Positions 16,626 to 47,942 of a stretch of 64,000 nt of DNA are shown one piece after another. Source of the DNA: Bacteroidota bacterium (GTDB taxonomy: Bacteria > Bacteroidota > Bacteroidia > UBA4408); contig CAUJCU010000002.1 of assembly GCA_963169745.1 (NCBI GenBank), positions 1-64,000 of the forward strand, given 5' to 3'. The position numbers and the translations under genes are program-made. Within the stretch, counting starts at the first letter, position 1; every line of letters starts with the position of its first letter. The notes beneath the pieces were generated by a model, which was given only the letters and a program-made list of their open reading frames with translations, did not search any database and was not told the origin of the DNA.

Positions 16626-18335
16626 TTATTTTCTCAAATGAAACAAAAATTCCAAACCTCCTTCTTTTCTGTTTTTCACAAGAATAGAGCCGCCATGAAT
16701 GAGAACAGCATTTTTTACAATAGAAAGTCCTAAACCTGACCCCCCAACAGATCTTGCTCGTCCTTCATCTACTCTGTAAAATCGTTCAAATATTCGGGTT
16801 AAATGTTTTTCATCTTTGATGCCTTTTCCGGTATCATAGAATGAAAAATAATAAAATTCCGCATCTGTTTTATATATTGATATGCTAATGTCAATATCCT
16901 TCCCAGCATATCTAATCGCATTGTCTATCAAATTTCTAAAGATAGAATGTACTAAACTTTCATTAGCGTTTATCATTGTATTTTCCGGAATGGAAAATAC
17001 AAGTTTTGCGTTGTTTTCTTTTAGAATGTATGAATATTCTTTCCAAATTTTTTCAAAAAATAAAAACAAATTAAACTCTTCCTTTTTTAGTGAATAACCT
17101 GCTTCGTCCAGCTTGTTGATAAGGCTCATGTCTTGTAACAATTCAGTGAGTACTTTTGTTTGATTAAATGCTTGACGGATAAAATGTTGTTTTGTTTCAT
17201 CATCTAATGGTTTTTCCAAAATAGTTTCTAAATATCCACTAATACCGGTAACTGGTGTTCTTAATTCATGTGCAATATTACTTATCATTTGTTGTTTAAG
17301 TTCTTTAATTTTTTCTTGTTTTGAAATGTCGTTCATAATCACTTCAAAACTACCATCTTCGAACATTACTATTCGTATAGAAAATGTTTTTCCTTGTTTA
17401 CTCAAATGATATTCTTTGAAAGGAGATTTTGCATTTTCCAAAAAATGTTGAAGTTCGATAAAGGTTTTATCCGAAAAAATTGTGGAAGTATCTGCACTTG
17501 TTTTATCAGTAATGTTGTGTATAAACTGTAAAAATAATCCATTATGAAACTCGGCAGTTTTATGCTGCGAAAAGAAACAGATTCCTTCCTGTGAATTATG
17601 AATGTGTAGTAAAAGCTTTTCTTGTTCAAGCTCTATTTTTTCCTTACTTTTTCTAAGTGCTGTATAATTTATGGCTATTTCCCTTCCTATTTCACCAATT
17701 TCATTTTTAGGAAAACTAAATGGTGTATTTTTTTTTGGAGCGAGTGCAAAATCCCGCAATTCAATAATCGATTTAGAAAAATTGTTGCTGATTTTATTTA
17801 AAATTAGTAAAACTGTTAGAAACAAAAGGATAATGACATATAGAAAAACATTGTCAGTTTTGAAAAATTGTTGCAACTGAATATCATAAGGTAATGCAAC
17901 TCTTACAAAAAGATTCCCATCATTTTTAGCGTAGTACAAATATTTTTTATTCGTAGAGAGAGATGTGCGAATGTCCGTCCCTGTTTTATTTTTTTGTGCC
18001 GATACTATTTCGGGGCGGTTCAAGTGATTTTCCAAATTATCCCAACCGGAGACATCGTTATCAAATATTACTTTCCCTCCTGGTTCAATTATGGAGAGGC
18101 GCAAATTTTGAGGAAGAATTGAATCTAATATTTGAAGAAGTTTAGTATAATTTTCTACGGGTTGATTATTGATGGATTTTTGTACAATATTAGTGTATGC
18201 ATCCAATTTTTCTTCAATTGCTTTTGTTTTAAATTTTTTCTCGCGATTTTGTTCAATGAAAAATACGCTCAATGTAAACAGCGTGGTAGGAAGTGCAACA
18301 TAAAGGAATAACCGCAATCTATAATTCAGCTTCAT
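16626..18335 (-). CDS. phoR: PhoR-like sensor histidine kinase
   Basis: The 569-residue inner-membrane kinase is paired with the response regulator upstream. Two membrane helices (about 8-25 and 163-183) enclose a periplasmic segment, then come a HAMP-like linker, a PAS-like region (about 235-345), the HisKA box HELRTPVTGISGY (His356) and a full HATPase: RNLIDNAIRYAG (N), DTGKGI (G1), FERFYRVDEGR (F), GGSGLGLSIVK (G2). The gene overlaps the regulator by 4 nt (ATGA), so the pair is translationally coupled. The position at the end of the pst-phoU operon is the main reason for the PhoR name. Confidence 0.88.
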   Translation of the reverse strand: MKLNYRLRLFLYVALPTTLFTLSVFFIEQNREKKFKTKAIEEKLDAYTNIVQKSINNQPVENYTKLLQILDSILPQNLRLSIIEPGGKVIFDNDVSGWDNLENHLNRPEIVSAQKNKTGTDIRTSLSTNKKYLYYAKNDGNLFVRVALPYDIQLQQFFKTDNVFLYVIILLFLTVLLILNKISNNFSKSIIELRDFALAPKKNTPFSFPKNEIGEIGREIAINYTALRKSKEKIELEQEKLLLHIHNSQEGICFFSQHKTAEFHNGLFLQFIHNITDKTSADTSTIFSDKTFIELQHFLENAKSPFKEYHLSKQGKTFSIRIVMFEDGSFEVIMNDISKQEKIKELKQQMISNIAHELRTPVTGISGYLETILEKPLDDETKQHFIRQAFNQTKVLTELLQDMSLINKLDEAGYSLKKEEFNLFLFFEKIWKEYSYILKENNAKLVFSIPENTMINANESLVHSIFRNLIDNAIRYAGKDIDISISIYKTDAEFYYFSFYDTGKGIKDEKHLTRIFERFYRVDEGRARSVGGSGLGLSIVKNAVLIHGGSILVKNRKEGGLEFLFHLRK

Positions 18336-19018
18336 AAATTTTGCAAATCAAATTTATAGCCAAAACCAACTTTATTTGTAATTAGAACACCATACTCTCC
18401 CAATTTTTTTCTTAATCGTGTGATATGCACATCTACAGTTCGTTCAGTAATAAAAACATCATCACCCCATACACTTTCAATAATTTCCTGTCTTGAAAAG
18501 TTACGGTTAGGTCTTTCACAAAATTTCTTGAGAATATCGAATTCTGTTTTGGTTAAATTGATATTTTCTTTTTTGATGCTAACTTCTTTATTCTCAATGT
18601 CAATTTCTAAATCTTTAAAGGTTAAAAACTGTTTCACATCTTTTAAAGAAATAGTTTGTGTTCTTTTTAAAATTGCTTTAACTCTAGCTATAACCTCTTT
18701 AATAGAAAAAGGCTTTGAAATATAATCATCTGCGCCTACAGAAAAACCAGTTAGCATATCGTTTTCAGTTTCTTTGGCTGTGAGAAAAATAACGGGAGTC
18801 AAATTACCATCGCTTCTTATTTTTTCCAACATTTTATAGCCCGACATTTCCTGCATCATCACATCCAACAAAATGAGCTGTGTTTTTTCGTTCAATTTTC
18901 TCAAAGCTTCTTCAGCGGAATAAGCCAATTCCACAGAATATCCTTCGCTTTTCAGATTAAACTCCAAAATCTCACAAATACTCTTATCGTCATCTACCAA
19001 CAGGATATTTTCATTCAT
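18332..19018 (-). CDS. phoB: PhoB-like response regulator (OmpR family)
   Basis: The 228-residue protein has a receiver domain (acidic pair DD at 9-10, phospho-acceptor Asp52 in LILLDVMM, Thr in FLTAKE, Lys in YISKPFS) and a C-terminal OmpR-type winged helix (FDILKKFCERPNRNFSRQE, then TVDVHITRLRKKLG). It likely activates the phosphate genes when phosphorylated by the adjacent kinase. The 11-bp repeats upstream of pstS and of the porin gene are its candidate binding sites. PhoU precedes it with a 41-nt gap. Confidence 0.9.
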   Translation of the reverse strand: MNENILLVDDDKSICEILEFNLKSEGYSVELAYSAEEALRKLNEKTQLILLDVMMQEMSGYKMLEKIRSDGNLTPVIFLTAKETENDMLTGFSVGADDYISKPFSIKEVIARVKAILKRTQTISLKDVKQFLTFKDLEIDIENKEVSIKKENINLTKTEFDILKKFCERPNRNFSRQEIIESVWGDDVFITERTVDVHITRLRKKLGEYGVLITNKVGFGYKFDLQNL

Positions 19019-19059: not shown

Positions 19060-19731
19060 TTATCCTTCTTTCTTCCCTGAATGTTTTAAAACTCTTGCTT
19101 CCACAAAAAAAACAATTTCCTCAATAATATTATTGTTGTGGTCGCCAATTCTTTCTAATTTTCGAACCAGTAACATAGTTTTTAATAAGCAAACAGCCTT
19201 TTCTGGATGTATTTTAATGTAATCACCTAAAATATTGAAAACTTGATGATAAATTTCATCCACCTTGTCGTCTTTTAAAATAATTCGCTCCGATACTTTA
19301 GTTTGCTCAGTTTCAAAAGCCACAAAGCCATCCAACAACATTCCGATTAAAATGTCAAACATCTTTTCTATTTCTAATTTTTCAATAAGCTGAGCATCCA
19401 TATTTTCACATTCTTTTTTGAAAACAAACCGGGCAATTCCTTCAGCGAAATCGCTGATTCTCTCTAATTCGGAGCTGATTTTTATTAATGATAATGCCAT
19501 GCGTAAATCTATGGCAACAGGGCTGTACAAAGCGATGAAATTTTCACAGTTGGAATCAATTTTCAACTCGAAAGTATTAACATCAATTTCCGTTTTAATG
19601 ATTTGCGATGCTATTTCCATATCATTTTTCAGCAATGCTTTTTTGGCATTTTCAACTTGTGAAATCACCAATTTCCACATGAGTTTTACTTCTTCTTTCA
19701 AGAGAAGAATTTCTTTTTCTGTATGTTTCAT
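19060..19731 (-). CDS. phoU: Phosphate signalling protein PhoU
   Basis: The 223-residue, entirely helical cytoplasmic protein is built of two similar three-helix repeats, as in PhoU, with the metal-binding-type motifs ERISDFAEGIARF in the first and ERIGDHNNNIIEE in the second (E-R-x-x-D pattern). PhoU links the PstSCAB transporter to PhoR and damps signalling when phosphate is plentiful. Its start overlaps the mgsA stop by 4 nt (ATGA). Confidence 0.95.
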   Translation of the reverse strand: MKHTEKEILLLKEEVKLMWKLVISQVENAKKALLKNDMEIASQIIKTEIDVNTFELKIDSNCENFIALYSPVAIDLRMALSLIKISSELERISDFAEGIARFVFKKECENMDAQLIEKLEIEKMFDILIGMLLDGFVAFETEQTKVSERIILKDDKVDEIYHQVFNILGDYIKIHPEKAVCLLKTMLLVRKLERIGDHNNNIIEEIVFFVEARVLKHSGKKEG

Positions 19732-20201
19732 TTTAATTTTCGATTTTGATACATAGTAATTTGCTCGGGTAATTTTGGTTTGTAATCCGTGGCCATAAGC
19801 GGAGAGGAAATAAAGAAATCGGCAGAGGAGCGGGAGCAGGCATAAACAATGTTGTATAAAGTAGCAATTCGCAACAATGCTTTAATATCTACATCGTGTG
19901 GTTGTGGTTCCATAGCATCCCAAAAGAAGATGAGAATATCCACTTCGTTATTGCTAATTAAAGCTCCTAATTGTTGATCGCCTCCTAAAGGTCCTGATTT
20001 CAGTTTTGTAATGTTCAGATGATATTTTTCTATATCTCTGTTCATATAGTTTTTTAACTTATTTTCAACCAAATTGCCGGTGGTTCCAGTACATATTAAT
20101 TGATTTTCTATTAATTTTACCCAATGCTCACTCACCCATTCAATTAAATCTTGTTTACAATTATCGTGTGCAACGATAGCTATTTTCTTTTCTTTATTCA
20201 T
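19728..20201 (-). CDS. mgsA: Methylglyoxal synthase
   Basis: Converts dihydroxyacetone phosphate to methylglyoxal and phosphate. The 157 residues match the family length, and the fingerprints are intact: VAHDNCKQ (His12), CTGTTGNL, SGPLGGDQQLGALI (catalytic Asp75), DILIFFWD and PHDVDIKALLR (His102, Asp105). The family enzyme from E. coli is strongly inhibited by phosphate, so it acts when phosphate is scarce and triose phosphates accumulate. Here the gene sits between pstB (9-nt gap) and phoU (4-nt overlap), so it must be co-expressed with phosphate uptake. I know of no general rule that mgsA belongs to pst operons. Confidence 0.95.
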   Translation of the reverse strand: MNKEKKIAIVAHDNCKQDLIEWVSEHWVKLIENQLICTGTTGNLVENKLKNYMNRDIEKYHLNITKLKSGPLGGDQQLGALISNNEVDILIFFWDAMEPQPHDVDIKALLRIATLYNIVYACSRSSADFFISSPLMATDYKPKLPEQITMYQNRKLK

Positions 20202-20210
20202 ATTCTGTTG

Positions 20211-20957
20211 TTAACCGAATCTTCCGGTAATATAATTTTGTGTTTCTTCTTTTTCAGGTGCTAAAAACATCTTCTTGGTATCGGAATACTCAACTAATTC
20301 TCCGTACATAAAAAAAGCTGTTTTATCGCTAACCCTTGCTGCCTGTTGCATATTATGAGTAACGATAACGATGGTATATTGCTGTTTCAATACATGAATC
20401 AACTCTTCGATTTTAGCAGTTGAAATAGGATCAAGGGCAGAAGCCGGTTCATCCATCAAAAGTATTGACGGAGAAACAGCCAAGGCGCGAGCGATACACA
20501 ATCTTTGTTGCTGTCCTCCCGATAATTCAAAGGCAGATTTATTGAGTTTATATTTCACTTCGTCCCAAAGTGCTGCAGCAGTTAAGGATTCTTCTACTTT
20601 TTTAGTTATGAAAGCTCTATCTTTTATACCATTAACTTTTAGTCCATAAGCTACATTTTCAAAAATACTTTTTGGGAATGGATTTGGCTTTTGAAAGACC
20701 ATTCCTACATTCTTTCGCAACATATCAACCTGAGTATGTTTTGTATAAATATCTTTACCGTTTATCCAACATTCGCCTTCCAATTTTGCTCCTGGAATTT
20801 CGTCATTCATGCGGTTAAACAGCCGTAAAAAAGTGGATTTTCCACAACCAGAAGGCCCTATAAGCGCTATTGCGGAATTGGATTTCATTTTCATATTGAC
20901 ATTTTTGATGGCATGAAAAGAGCCGTAATAAAAATTTACATTCTTTGTTTCTATCAT
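20211..20957 (-). CDS. pstB: Phosphate ABC transporter ATP-binding protein
   Basis: The 248-residue ATPase energises phosphate import. It has Walker [10 protein letters not shown] (34-42), Q-loop [19 protein letters not shown], signature [15 protein letters not shown] (145-159), Walker [14 protein letters not shown] and the switch His in VTHNMQQA. The FQKPNPFP sequence is diagnostic for PstB. Its ATG overlaps the pstA stop by one base (TAATG). Confidence 0.97.
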
Positions 20958-21808
20958 TATTTATTTTTTTCAAATCGTTTTTTAATAATTACAGCTAAGG
21001 AGTTCATCAACAGCACAATGAATATTAATACCAATGCCGTTCCGTACGCAATTGGACGTGCGGCTTCAATATCCGTTCCGCTGGTTGCCAAAACATACAA
21101 ATGGTAAGGAAGTGCCATTACCTGATCAAAAATGCTATGAGGTAATTTGGGTAGAAAGTAAGCAGCAACGGTAAACAATATGGGTGCTGTTTCCCCAGAC
21201 ACCCTTCCTATAGAAAGGATTAATCCGGTAATGATATTCGGAAAGGCTGTGGGCAAAACCACTCTTTTAATAGTCTGTATCTTATTAGCACCCAATGCGG
21301 TACTGCCTAATCGATAGGTTTTTGGAACAGCTTTTAATGCTTCTTCCGTTGTTCTGATGACCACCGGTAGAATAAGCAAACCCAATGTGAGTGAACCTGC
21401 AATAATGGAATCGCCAAAACCTAAGGTGTTTACAAACAAAGTCATTCCAAACAAACCAAAAACAATCGAAGGAATACTTGCAAGGTTATTGGTCATGATA
21501 CGGATACATTTTGTCAGCCAATTATTTTTGGTATATTCTACCGTATAAATAGCGGACATTATTCCCAACGGAAAAGCAAATAAAGTACTCCCGATGATTA
21601 AATAAAATGTTCCTACTATTGCTGGGAAAATGCCGCCTCCTGTCATTCCATCCGTTGGAGCAGAAAATATAAACTCCCAACTGATGACACTTATTCCGTT
21701 GTAAACAATAAAACCCAATATCCATAACAATACGCCCAAAACCAAAAACCCGAGTAGGCGGAATACAGTAAAGGCAATTTGTTCTTGTATTTTTTTTGTT
21801 TGCATCAT
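20957..21808 (-). CDS. pstA: Phosphate ABC transporter permease PstA
   Basis: From ATG 21808 the protein has 283 residues and about six membrane helices, with the EAA-like loop [28 protein letters not shown] that docks to PstB. An open frame extends to 21883, but that reading overlaps pstC by 79 nt and adds an implausible hydrophilic lead. The 21808 ATG makes a standard ATGA junction with the pstC stop and is therefore chosen. Confidence 0.95.
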
Positions 21809-23001
21809 TCTTTTATAATTTTTCGTGATGAGATAACTTCTGCTACAATACTGATAATTAAGGTAATGATAAACAGTACACATCCCAACATAAACAAAGC
21901 CTGATAATGTGCTCCGCCTCCGGGTGCTTCACCCAATTCTGCCGCAATAGTAGCCGGAATCGTTCTCACTGATTCAAAAATTGAATTGGGGATTACGGCT
22001 GCATTACCAGTAACCATCAGCACCGCCATGGTTTCGCCTATTGCCCGTCCAATGCCTAAAACAACGGCTGCAGCTATACCTGATGAGGCAAAAGGAATAA
22101 TAACTTTGTAAATGGTTTGCCATTTTGTAGCACCTAAGGCCAGGCTGGCATCTCGCATTGCTTTTGGAATAGTGCGCATAGCATCCTCAGCAATGGAAAT
22201 TATAGTTGGTAACGCCATTATAGCCAATACCAAACTACCGGCAAAAGCCGTTTCGCCCAAATCGAGACCACCTATTTTTTGGATAATAGGAGCTATAACA
22301 ACCAATCCAAAAAAACCATACACTACCGAAGGAATACCTGCTAATAGTTCAATGGCGGGTTTCAGCAATTTCCTAACTCGTTCATTGGCAATTTCCGCCA
22401 AGTAAATTGCAACACCTACACCCAACGGGATGGCAATCAGAATAGCAATAAAACTTACTAAAAGCGTTCCAAGCAATAATGGCAATATTCCAAACAATGG
22501 AGCGGGTGTTGCCGTTGGTATCCATTCTTTTCCTATGTAAAAGTCTGTTAAGCTAATATTCATTTTGGCTAATTCTTTAATTCCCTGAAGATTTGTAGGA
22601 AGATATTTTTGCGGTATATAAGCAATGATGGTAGGATCGGCACTGATAACTTCTTCCAATTTTTCGGGTAATAAGACATAATCCTTTCCTAATTCATCTT
22701 CCGTATATATTGAAAATATTTCGTCAAATCGGAATATGCGAATCGCTTCGTCTTTACCGCCTAATTTTTCCCAATTTTCAATATTACCGTCAAAAACTTC
22801 TTTTAATTCTTTTGGCGAAAGTCTTTCCACCGTATTTTCTGAATGTACTAATACAGTATATCCTTTTTCCACTTCGGATGCATTAAACAAACCGGCTCCT
22901 TCTTTAAACAAAAAAACGATAATAAGCAGTACCGTTATTTCGGTAACGGCACCGCTCATTTTTATTAATTGTTCAATCAGAGTATCTATTAATCTCTTCA
23001 T
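21805..23001 (-). CDS. pstC: Phosphate ABC transporter permease PstC with a PstS-like periplasmic insertion
   Basis: At 398 residues it is about 80-100 longer than ordinary PstC. After the first membrane helix (about 18-33) comes a hydrophilic stretch (about 45-145) before the other five helices. Residues 48-93 align with 101-146 of the neighbouring PstS: LSPKELKEVFDGNIENW against LTREQLEGIFTGKIKNW. A second block, IIAYIPQKYLPTNLQGIKEL, resembles AIGYVGFAYLNDNVKALHI of PstS. So a partial binding-protein lobe is probably tethered to the permease. The C-terminal part is canonical, with EDAMRTIPKAMRDASLALGA as the coupling loop. It overlaps pstA by 4 nt. Confidence 0.93.
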   Translation of the reverse strand: MKRLIDTLIEQLIKMSGAVTEITVLLIIVFLFKEGAGLFNASEVEKGYTVLVHSENTVERLSPKELKEVFDGNIENWEKLGGKDEAIRIFRFDEIFSIYTEDELGKDYVLLPEKLEEVISADPTIIAYIPQKYLPTNLQGIKELAKMNISLTDFYIGKEWIPTATPAPLFGILPLLLGTLLVSFIAILIAIPLGVGVAIYLAEIANERVRKLLKPAIELLAGIPSVVYGFFGLVVIAPIIQKIGGLDLGETAFAGSLVLAIMALPTIISIAEDAMRTIPKAMRDASLALGATKWQTIYKVIIPFASSGIAAAVVLGIGRAIGETMAVLMVTGNAAVIPNSIFESVRTIPATIAAELGEAPGGGAHYQALFMLGCVLFIITLIISIVAEVISSRKIIKE

Positions 23002-23015
23002 ATAATAGTAATGGA

Positions 23016-23828
23016 TTATTCCACGGAAATATATCCTGCGTCAGACACTACTTTTTGACCTTTGGGAGTGAGAACAAAATCAATGAAGGCTTTACATGTT
23101 GCGTTAATTATGGTATAGTAATAATAAAGCGGTCTTACGATGGGATAACTTTTGTTTTTGGCATTTTCAATGGTTGGAGCAATGAATGTTTTTCCTTTGT
23201 CGTATGAAATGTGTAATGCTTTTACGTTATCGTTTAGATAAGCAAAACCCACATACCCTATAGCTCCTTTTGTCTGGCTGACTGATTGTATGATTCCCCC
23301 TGTTGCAGGCATACTCAAAATCCCGTTCATGTAGTTCTTGTTTTTCAATACACTTTCTTTGAAGAACTCATACGTCCCTGATGACGTTTCTCTTGAATAC
23401 GGAATTATTTTCAAATCCTCGCCTCCGACTTCTTTCCAGTTTTTTATCTTTCCGGTAAAGATTCCTTCTAATTGTTCCCTTGTCAATTTAGTTACCTTGT
23501 TTGCAGGATGTACCACTACACTCAAAGCGTCATATGCTATAATTACTTCTTTGACCTGTTTGCCTGCTTCAGCAAATTTTTGTTTTTCATCAAATTTAAT
23601 TTTTCGTGAAGACTGCGCAATATCAGTACTTCCGCTGAGCAGAGATGAAATTCCTACACCGCTTCCACCTCCGGTAACGGAGATTGCAACCGACTTATTC
23701 TCTTTTTTGTAGGTTTCCAATGCCTTTTGAGTAAGCGGTAAAACCGTGTCTGATCCTTTGATTTTTTGTGCGTATATCGATGTTCCAAACAATGCACATG
23801 TTAATGTTGTTAAAATTATTTTTTTCAT
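23016..23828 (-). CDS. pstS: Periplasmic phosphate-binding protein PstS
   Basis: The 270-residue protein has a cleavable signal peptide (MKKIILTTLTCALFGTSIYA). The mature protein starts at once with the phosphate-binding loop KIKGSDTVLP, followed by VTGGGSGVGI (51-60), STDIAQSSR and YSRETSSGTYEFF (144-156), the set of loops that hold phosphate in PstS. The gap to pstC is 14 nt. Upstream, in the 84-nt space behind the porin gene, lies an 11-bp-periodic repeat array, so pstS probably has a second, phosphate-controlled promoter of its own. Confidence 0.96.
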   Translation of the reverse strand: MKKIILTTLTCALFGTSIYAQKIKGSDTVLPLTQKALETYKKENKSVAISVTGGGSGVGISSLLSGSTDIAQSSRKIKFDEKQKFAEAGKQVKEVIIAYDALSVVVHPANKVTKLTREQLEGIFTGKIKNWKEVGGEDLKIIPYSRETSSGTYEFFKESVLKNKNYMNGILSMPATGGIIQSVSQTKGAIGYVGFAYLNDNVKALHISYDKGKTFIAPTIENAKNKSYPIVRPLYYYYTIINATCKAFIDFVLTPKGQKVVSDAGYISVE

Positions 23829-23871
23829 TTTTTTTATTTCTTTATTCTTTGTGCAAAGAAAGTAGTATAGT

Positions 23872-23911
23872 GTTTCAACCTAATTTCAATGCGGTTACAA
23901 TTCTGTTACGA
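23872..23911 (-). promoter_or_regulatory. Candidate Pho box upstream of pstS: four heptamers every 11 bp
   Basis: On the minus strand, TCGTAAC, TTGTAAC, TTGAAAT and TTGAAAC follow one another separated by exactly 4 nt (period 11). The last ends 43 nt before the pstS ATG. The 7+4 layout equals that of the E. coli Pho box, while the heptamer sequence differs. A similar array with the same spacing lies before the porin gene. Binding by the PhoB-like regulator is an inference. Confidence 0.7.
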
Positions 23912-23912
23912 T

Positions 23913-25193
23913 TTAGAATTTATACTGCAATCTCAAAGTGAATACATTGTCTTTTCTGTCTGATTCGTAGCCTTTGAGATATTTTGAAGTTTCATTTTTT
24001 ACTATCTCATAATAAGCTGTCATACGAAAACTGCTGTTCATCTTCCATTGTAAACCTAAACCAAGTGTATTAAATTCGATATCACCGGAATTGGTTTGAT
24101 TCATTCCAATATCATTTATTTTTCCTTTTACTTTAATATTTGGATCATACCAATCGTATTTTACAATGGCGGAAAATGGAAGCGAACCTAAATCCTGTAC
24201 CAACATGGCATAACCGCCTTGAAAATTCCGAATATACACATCACTTGTTGGAAGCACCGATGTGTTGGGGCTTTTACTATCCTTTAATCCAGCTGGTTGA
24301 GTTCCAAACAGGTATTCCGTAGTGAATTTTGTTAACCCTATTTTACTTAAAACAGTGAGTTGAAAATCTAATCCGAAATATTCCCTTTTTGCATATTTCC
24401 CGATGTTGTTTGTGTCTGAATTTAATGAAAAACCATTACCATTGTTTTGATAAACTTTTTTAGAGCCTTGATATACCCCTCCGTTATAATAGGAAACTCC
24501 ACCACCTATTTTAAGATTGTCATTTAAAGTCTTATTGACGCCTAAATGCCCGATAAAATCCTTGCTGTTATCGGTTTCCATTTTTATCCCGTTACCCGTA
24601 AATAATCCCGCATCTAATTTCAAGATGCTCCAAGGTGATGTTTTTGGTGCTTGCAAAGTAATTTTTGCCCCCAAATCTCGTTCTTCAGGAAATAAGGTTT
24701 GGAAAATGGTAGAGCGTTCAGGAGTTTCTCGTTGTGAAGAAGAATATGAAATTTCATAACCAAATGGTCGGTCAAAAACGCCAATAGTAGTAGAAATAGA
24801 ATTGAGCCATGGGTCGGTTAATTTCAGATAAGCATCCTTAATTCCTACTCCTTTTTCGGTGATATCTAATTGAAAAACTCCCGAGCCAATGTGTTTGGAA
24901 TATGAAAATTTTATTCTTCCTCGTCTAATGCCTAATCGGTTGAAATCTTTTGTTTTGTCCTCATTTGAGCCACCTACCTTTAATAAAGCGTCTTTTTCTC
25001 CATATTGAAATTGGGTTTGAACGTATCCACTTATTTTAATGTTATTTAGTTCATTGAATCCATCTTCGAGTTCTGTAATTTTCTGAATCAATAGCGGATC
25101 ACTTGGTGGTGGCTCTTGACAAATTGTATCTTGTTGAGCTAATAAAATGTTGCCCATTATTAAGCAACCTGCAAATACTAAAATTTTCTTCAT
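23913..25193 (-). CDS. Phosphate-selective porin of the OprO/OprP family
   Basis: The 426-residue outer-membrane protein has signal peptide MKKILVFAGCLIMGNILLAQ, a short coiled segment (LIQKITELEDGFNELNN) and a 16-stranded-type barrel beginning ISGYVQTQFQYG. Family blocks RLGIRRGRIKFSYSKHIG, FQLDITEKGVGIKDAYLKL and GVFDRPFGYEISYSSSQRE match the OprP/OprO porin family, and the chain ends in aromatic F (RLQYKF). Its position at the head of the pst operon supports phosphate uptake across the outer membrane, though other anions are possible. Confidence 0.9.
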   Translation of the reverse strand: MKKILVFAGCLIMGNILLAQQDTICQEPPPSDPLLIQKITELEDGFNELNNIKISGYVQTQFQYGEKDALLKVGGSNEDKTKDFNRLGIRRGRIKFSYSKHIGSGVFQLDITEKGVGIKDAYLKLTDPWLNSISTTIGVFDRPFGYEISYSSSQRETPERSTIFQTLFPEERDLGAKITLQAPKTSPWSILKLDAGLFTGNGIKMETDNSKDFIGHLGVNKTLNDNLKIGGGVSYYNGGVYQGSKKVYQNNGNGFSLNSDTNNIGKYAKREYFGLDFQLTVLSKIGLTKFTTEYLFGTQPAGLKDSKSPNTSVLPTSDVYIRNFQGGYAMLVQDLGSLPFSAIVKYDWYDPNIKVKGKINDIGMNQTNSGDIEFNTLGLGLQWKMNSSFRMTAYYEIVKNETSKYLKGYESDRKDNVFTLRLQYKF

Positions 25194-25214: not shown

Positions 25215-25235
25215 CAGCAAAAAAACTGTTGCCAT

Positions 25236-25264
25236 ATTTCAAAAGCATTTCGTTGAAATTACAA
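25236..25264 (-). promoter_or_regulatory. Candidate Pho box upstream of the porin gene: three heptamers every 11 bp
   Basis: On the minus strand TTGTAAT, ACGAAAT and TTGAAAT are separated by exactly 4 nt. A weaker unit (ACTTAAC, 25275-25269) precedes in the same phase. The last heptamer ends 42 nt before the ATG, against 43 nt for the pstS array. Shared consensus: TTG(T/A)AA(T/C)N4. Confidence 0.7.
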
Positions 25265-25347
25265 TGTAGTTAAGTTTTAATATGAGAAGAGCAATCTTTA
25301 AGTCGTAAACCATCAAATTATCTAAAATCTAAAAAATAAAGCAATTG

Positions 25348-46982: not shown

Positions 46983-47942
46983 TTAATTAAGAGGTTTATT
47001 GGTAATTTGTATAAGTCGAACTTGAATTGTAGCAGGAACAAGTCCGGCAAGCTTCATTATTCTTTGGCCTTTCTCTCCGGCAACAAAAGAAACAAATCCT
47101 GTGCCAAGTCCTGCACGCGTTTGCCTGTTAATCATATAAACACTTCTACTTAAAGGGTATGATTTATTAGCAATATAGGCCTGCATAGGCTTTCGAAATT
47201 TAGTAAGTTCATTAGGGTATGCTTCATCAGTAAGGCTAACTACAGTAATTTCTTTTAAAAAACTTTGAGTTAACGTGTCGTCTAAATCACTTATCCAATT
47301 TACACCAATAATTCCCATTGCATTTTCATGTGTACTAACATAAGATATTACCTCAGTATTAGAATGTACAGCAAATACATTTTGCCCAAAACCCTGATTC
47401 TCAATGAGATTTTTCATAAATCTATAATTCGCAGAGTTTGCATTGTCAAACACAATATGTAAGGGTTTTTCTTTTGAAGATGGCCAAATTGTATCTTCTC
47501 CGGCAAGAAAGCGTTTAATTTGTTTGACACTAAATAATGTGTCATGATTTTTATTGTTCACGATGAGAGCTACAGCATCTTCTGCAATTTTTGTAGTAAC
47601 CGGATAAATATTAGCCTTTTGAAACATTTTCGTTTCTTGCTGAGTTAATTCTCTATTTATTATGGCTACTTTAGAAGAATCGGTCATCAAGTCTTTCAAG
47701 GCCTCTGGTTCTGTTCGGTATTTAACATGTACTTTGGCATTGGGATACAAAGCTTCAAATGTATAGATCTGTGTATCAAAAAGCATTGTATATGATTCAT
47801 CAACAGATATAGTCACTTCACCTGATGTGGCCGTGTCGGTGTAATCAGCTCCAACCGGATTATGGTTACATGCGCCAATAACAAATAAGAAAGCTATAGC
47901 TACTACATTCTTCGAAAAATTAATCTTTCCAATGATTTTCAT
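46983..47942 (-). CDS. PstS-like substrate-binding lipoprotein
   Basis: From ATG 47942 the protein has 319 residues; a TTG four codons earlier is rejected. The lipobox FVIGAC marks a lipoprotein. The fold is PBP-like type 2 of the PstS group: GEVTISVDESYTMLF at the first ligand loop, SVKQIKRFLAGEDTIW, VFDNANSANYRFM and AMGIIGVNWISD. The phosphate loops G-S-D-T and S-R-x-x-S-S-G-T of PstS are not preserved, so phosphate is unlikely as ligand. Such proteins often accompany TonB/ExbD and TPR genes in Bacteroidota. No permease is adjacent. Confidence 0.8.
   Translation of the reverse strand: MKIIGKINFSKNVVAIAFLFVIGACNHNPVGADYTDTATSGEVTISVDESYTMLFDTQIYTFEALYPNAKVHVKYRTEPEALKDLMTDSSKVAIINRELTQQETKMFQKANIYPVTTKIAEDAVALIVNNKNHDTLFSVKQIKRFLAGEDTIWPSSKEKPLHIVFDNANSANYRFMKNLIENQGFGQNVFAVHSNTEVISYVSTHENAMGIIGVNWISDLDDTLTQSFLKEITVVSLTDEAYPNELTKFRKPMQAYIANKSYPLSRSVYMINRQTRAGLGTGFVSFVAGEKGQRIMKLAGLVPATIQVRLIQITNKPLN

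Follow-up and report, generated by a model that had tools for sequence, protein, structure and literature searches.

The 64-kb stretch of DNA analysed here, hereafter the window, carries on its minus strand a pst cluster in which pstS is followed downstream by pstC, pstA, pstB, a methylglyoxal synthase gene, phoU, phoB and phoR, and is preceded by a porin gene. The gene pstS (23016-23828) codes for a phosphate-binding protein (PF12849, E 1.8e-43; over the cut-off of TIGR02136), pstC (21805-23001) and pstA (20957-21883) for permeases and pstB (20211-20957) for an ATPase, and these last three, together with phoU (19060-19731), score over the cut-offs of TIGR02138, TIGR00974, TIGR00972 and TIGR02135, respectively. 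Further downstream lie phoB (18332-19018), which encodes an OmpR-family response regulator, and phoR (16626-18335), which encodes a sensor kinase (NCBIfam NF053855, 570.3 against a cut-off of 500). The upstream gene (23913-25193) specifies a phosphate-selective porin O/P-like outer-membrane protein (Pfam PF07396, E 4.5e-5). The methylglyoxal synthase gene (19728-20201, minus strand), lodged between pstB and phoU, recurs in the locus of 11 of the 56 pstB-bearing relatives; as this enzyme is inhibited by phosphate, its membership of a Pho operon makes sense. Close to its N-terminus, PstC includes a stretch of about 45 PstS-like residues (22738-22860, minus strand; PBP_like_2, TIGR02136), which we also observed in the PstC proteins of several relatives. 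The window further encodes a chloramphenicol acetyltransferase-family protein near the pst cluster (PF00302; 26704-27330, plus strand) and a distant PstS-like protein with 26% identity (47037-47702, minus strand).

The porin stop codon and pstS are separated by a gap of 84 nt with a G+C content of 27%, and this gap houses an array of four heptamers (23872-23911, minus strand) that starts 1 nt past the porin stop and leaves 43 nt between its last heptamer and the pstS ATG at 23828. Read from 23911 to 23872, it runs TCGTAAC AGAA TTGTAAC CGCA TTGAAAT TAGG TTGAAAC, the uniform 4-nt spacers giving a period of 11. The first-pass annotation had described these heptamers, their exact spacing and their placement in the porin-pstS gap, and had likened the 7+4 periodicity to that of the Escherichia coli Pho box while noting a different heptamer; all of this holds on re-reading of the spacers and coordinates, the E. 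coli pstS heptamer being CTGTCAT at the same period of 11. A Pho box is made up of at least two direct repeats of 11-nt units, each with seven conserved and four less conserved positions, and the array has precisely this composition. Three copies of TTGNAA at period 11 occur just once in the 2.99-Mb genome, in the pstS array, and the reversed pattern used as a control does not occur at all.

Two further features at this locus were absent from the earlier annotation. The first is a -7-type promoter element, TTTCTTTG (23854-23861, minus strand), which the 10-nt spacer ACTATACTAC joins to the last heptamer of the pstS array. It departs from TAnnTTTG, the consensus of the Bacteroidota promoter element, in that T replaces A. 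The second is another array upstream of the porin gene (25236-25275, minus strand), which reads ACTTAAC TACA TTGTAAT TTCA ACGAAAT GCTT TTGAAAT from 25275 to 25236 and is likewise followed, 10 nt after its last heptamer, by a -7-type element, TTTTTTTG (25218-25225, minus strand). Other searches of the region gave sigma-70-type promoters in a number equal to that in shuffled sequences, no riboswitch or other RNA element matched in Rfam, and only two terminator-like stems, both inside the porin gene.

We then examined the upstream regions of pstS in relatives. PstS relatives led to 80 loci, from which 77 pstS upstream regions, comprising the window and 76 relatives, were analysed. The distances between TTG trinucleotides in these regions peak at 22, with 38 cases against about six at most other distances. 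An expectation-maximisation fit that took the window site as its start recovered a four-heptamer array of period 11, followed after exactly 10 nt by TAnnTTTG, in 60 of the 77 regions. The 37-bit consensus consists of TCTTAAC or TCGTAAC, TTGTAAC, a weak box and [TC]TGWAA[TC], each separated by 4 nt, and then, 10 nt on, TAnnTTTG (columns 50-57 of the pstS-array matrix). The array is conserved across families, with unchanged spacing between its boxes. The interval from the boxes to TAnnTTTG is likewise constant, whereas the ATG follows at distances of 8 to 81 nt among loci, so that the array and the promoter element act as a single unit. Pho boxes replace the upstream promoter element and stand at a fixed spacing from the equivalent of the -10 element; in the conserved arrays this spacing is the 10 nt to TAnnTTTG. 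Arrays upstream of porin genes, which lay outside the training set, are present in the window and most relatives; of the 17 loci that lack an array at pstS, 10 show one with a score above 20 close to the start of the porin gene. With the pstS-array matrix applied to whole loci, the porin array of the window scored 32.5, and the maximum in a reversed-sequence control of 2.27 Mb was 12.4. A lack of conservation upstream of orthologous genes had been named as grounds for abandoning the candidate; instead, the period-11 heptamers recur in those 60 of 77 pstS regions and also at porin, phoB, PiT and other phosphate genes of other genera. The uniform heptamer model TTGWAAY that had been put forward stands as regards the period-11 array, but not for every box, since most pstS arrays have a weak box 3 and box 1 is usually TCTTAAC; the strongest signature is formed by TTGTAAC (box 2), [TC]TGWAA[TC] (box 4) and TAnnTTTG, all at fixed spacing.

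The genes behind such arrays elsewhere are informative with respect to function. A model built from the pst-cluster arrays (R1) was run on 60 genomes of a genus from a different family (g36) and gave matches in 46 of them. Among the 88 loci examined in this genus, the site is directly followed by phoB in 36 and by a PiT transporter gene (PF01384) in 29; polyphosphate kinase, group-1 glycosyltransferase and TonB-dependent receptor genes account for five each, a type I phosphodiesterase/phosphatase, a porin O/P and pstC for one each, and five are unassigned. Here, BLAST served to identify phoB, PiT, porin and pstC. One representative each of the PiT, polyphosphate kinase, glycosyltransferase, receptor, phosphatase and porin genes was checked against Pfam, and the rest of the smaller groups were placed by visual comparison of their similar N-termini. 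Pho boxes reside in promoters of phosphate-acquisition genes, and the arrays do likewise, preceding pstS and the porin gene in the window and phoB, PiT, ppk and pstC elsewhere. At five g36 loci (L267, L270, L272, L273 and L307) the array-like sites precede a conserved group-1 glycosyltransferase gene and have a poor box 1; these sites might perhaps relate to lipid remodelling at low phosphate.

Scans of the window and of its genome show how sharply the arrays stand out. When the genome was scanned, the two pst-cluster arrays ranked first and second, at 39.7 (pstS) and 31.8 bits, the next match scoring 18.8; both window arrays were part of the training alignment, so these scores are not independent, and the independent test is the scan of the window with leave-out and g36 models. 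The third match (C13:102851, 18.8 bits) was discarded as it lies inside an open reading frame. A leave-out matrix derived from the pstS arrays of 54 other genomes, with the window excluded, gave 46.2 for the pstS array and 32.4 for the porin array, the best unrelated position in the 64 kb scoring -0.3 and the best in 40 Markov-shuffled windows 12.0. A model trained solely on the phoB and PiT arrays of g36, sites found via R1 itself yet lying before other genes in another family, likewise gave its two highest scores over both strands of the 64 kb to the pstS array (21.9) and then the porin array (9.7), ahead of the next window position at -1.4 and a maximum of 5.5 over 40 shuffled windows.

The array also travels with a particular type of regulator. 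The PhoB protein of the window passes the model for Bacteroidota PhoB (NF053854, 313.9 against a cut-off of 270) and falls below the cut-off of the general model (TIGR02154, 214.9 against 296.2). In a sample from the class that comprised 296 genomes, 12 contain an array at E 1e-4 and 15 a PhoB above the NF053854 cut-off, with both in 10 (Fisher p 2.6e-12 with the window genome left out, genomes being treated as independent though related). Two genomes have an array without an NF053854 PhoB, and five have such a PhoB without an array match at E 1e-4; a direct scan upstream of phoB in the latter five gave scores of 20-38 in three. In a same-genus relative (G002), which has neither a close PstS nor an NF053854 PhoB, a strong array at the edge of a contig (L132, C8:252-297) precedes a porin-like gene.

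Comparison with characterized systems places the array within a wider kind of element. The E. coli K-12 pstS promoter reads CTGTCAT AAAA CTGTCAT ATTC CTTACAT ATAA CTGTCAC and then, after 10 nt, TATTTT. Both promoters thus have four period-11 heptamers, a deviant third one and exactly 10 nt to the -10 hexamer or its counterpart, and CTGTCAT and TTGTAAC share T2, G3, T4 and A6; they differ in the heptamer itself (CTGTCAT as against TTGTAAC/TTGAAAY), in the promoter element (TATAAT as against TAnnTTTG) and in the regulator, that of the window lying below the TIGR02154 cut-off. Given the same repeats, deviant third heptamer and gap, the Bacteroidota array shares its architecture with that of E. 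coli, whereas its heptamer and promoter element are different. The wing of the DNA-binding domain in the window type of PhoB is also unlike that of E. coli PhoB, and details of DNA recognition in E. coli therefore need not carry over. The window array, with its TTGTAAC/TTGAAAY heptamers, does not contain the E. coli consensus CTGTCAT, but as the known boxes have lineage-specific heptamers (PMC4415409) this mismatch excludes an E. coli-type box and not the wider kind. Such boxes include that of Streptomyces PhoP (GTTCACC; PMC4415409), which, along with the other lineage-specific PHO boxes, shares the 11-nt direct repeat units of seven conserved and four less conserved positions and differs in heptamer, phylum and promoter. 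Within the Bacteroidota, PhoB of Bacteroides fragilis binds a 512-bp pstC promoter fragment for which no consensus box was given, and its dependent genes comprise pst, a PiT-like permease, polyphosphate kinase, porin O and alkaline phosphatases (PMC3547664). The gene classes of this PhoRB regulon equal those behind the arrays, and where the site was mapped as a 512-bp fragment the array supplies a candidate sequence. In the open-licence literature we found no description of a Bacteroidota Pho box, apart from the related Riemerella PhoP motif discussed below, nor the binding sequence of Bacteroides PhoB, and the 20 best of 992 matches to the heptamer itself were unrelated to PhoB.

Based on these comparisons at the sequence level, we propose with considerable confidence that the array is a Bacteroidota Pho box, an operator at a pst promoter that depends on an activator, with PhoB as its candidate binder; the pstS array is very probably a PhoB docking site. 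The first-pass annotation had offered the array as a candidate box of this kind, and its conservation, its association with phosphate genes and its co-occurrence with the Bacteroidota-type PhoB all lend that proposal support.

The strongest competing explanation is that another OmpR-family regulator binds the arrays, period-11 repeats being generic to the family. The genome encodes several OmpR-family regulators, one of which is a second PhoB-like response regulator outside the window (C9:170493-171146, locus L231) with a different recognition helix, HIRKLREK. Genomes with this helix or a relative of it have TTAAC-type period-11 boxes before pst or porin genes, including those where only the HIRKLREK type occurs. 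Furthermore, PhoP of Riemerella anatipestifer, a regulator from the Flavobacteriia, yielded the DAP-seq motif TTTAACA (PMC9603813); this Bacteroidota OmpR-family protein thus has a TTAAC-type motif like that of the HIRKLREK-helix genomes, although the motif is without the G3 of TTGTAAC and was not presented as a phosphate box, and the regulon reported for PhoP is one of virulence and redox genes (PMC9603813). However, base 3 of the heptamer follows the recognition-helix type: 96 of the 129 boxes in the TTGTAAC (class-a) set have G there, compared with 5 of 37 boxes in the TTAAC (class-b) set, as counted with a scorer neutral at base 3 (p 2e-11, uncorrected for relatedness). Arrays with G3 accompany NF053854 PhoB in 10 of the 12 array genomes, and those of g36 most often precede phoB itself. 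As both regulator types are present in the genome of the window, we leave binding by the other regulator a small probability.

Much less probable still is an ordinary constitutive Bacteroidota promoter, in which AT-rich DNA carries -33 and -7 elements and no regulator takes part. The TAnnTTTG-type element after the array, and the resemblance of the TTG boxes to a -33 element, would suit such a promoter. However, the -33 and -7 elements of Bacteroidota are 17-23 nt apart, and the last TTG of the array stands 14 nt before the TA, below that spacing, while the four conserved boxes reach about 40 nt upstream. Moreover, with the promoter element removed from the g36 model, the boxes alone keep both window arrays on top, which a model of the -7 element alone does not, and the matches are concentrated on phosphate genes. 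A chance repeat or artefact of the AT-rich intergenic DNA, to which the low G+C content might point, is refuted by the conservation at pstS loci, with the array kept across families at constant internal spacing, and by shuffled and reversed controls whose scores do not exceed about 12, compared with 46 and 32 at the window arrays, and we accord it practically no likelihood.

Returning to the array as a Pho box, we posit the following mechanism. Under phosphate limitation, PhoR would phosphorylate PhoB, both being encoded downstream in the same cluster. The effector domains of PhoB would then bind in tandem, head-to-tail, one per 11-bp repeat and on the same face of the DNA, with the boxes occupying the place of the -33 element. 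From its position 10 nt before TAnnTTTG, the last PhoB would recruit the holoenzyme of the primary sigma factor and thereby activate transcription of pstS and the downstream genes from TAnnTTTG, with a predicted start a few nucleotides downstream of 23854. The porin array would act in the same way for the phosphate porin.

In Bacteroides, PhoB controls hundreds of genes and affects abscess survival (PMC3547664). The array represents a concrete operator that can be scanned for in genomes and has its promoter element attached, which would make Pho regulons predictable in Bacteroidota from the gut, the mouth and the environment. The principal sigma factor of this phylum reads -33/-7 elements, and the fixed 10-nt spacing to an element different from that of E. 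coli lets one ask whether PhoB recruits RNA polymerase in a like manner. We also raise the prospect, to which we give even chances, of a phylum-wide Bacteroidota Pho box in two versions, with TTGTAAC corresponding to the helices HITRLRKK and NITRLRKK and TTAAC to HIRKLREK, both keeping the exact geometry of four 11-nt repeats plus 10 nt. If this is true, the geometry of the PhoB-sigma contact would be conserved across promoter types, as that of E. coli pstS would have been kept despite another -10 element and another sigma factor.
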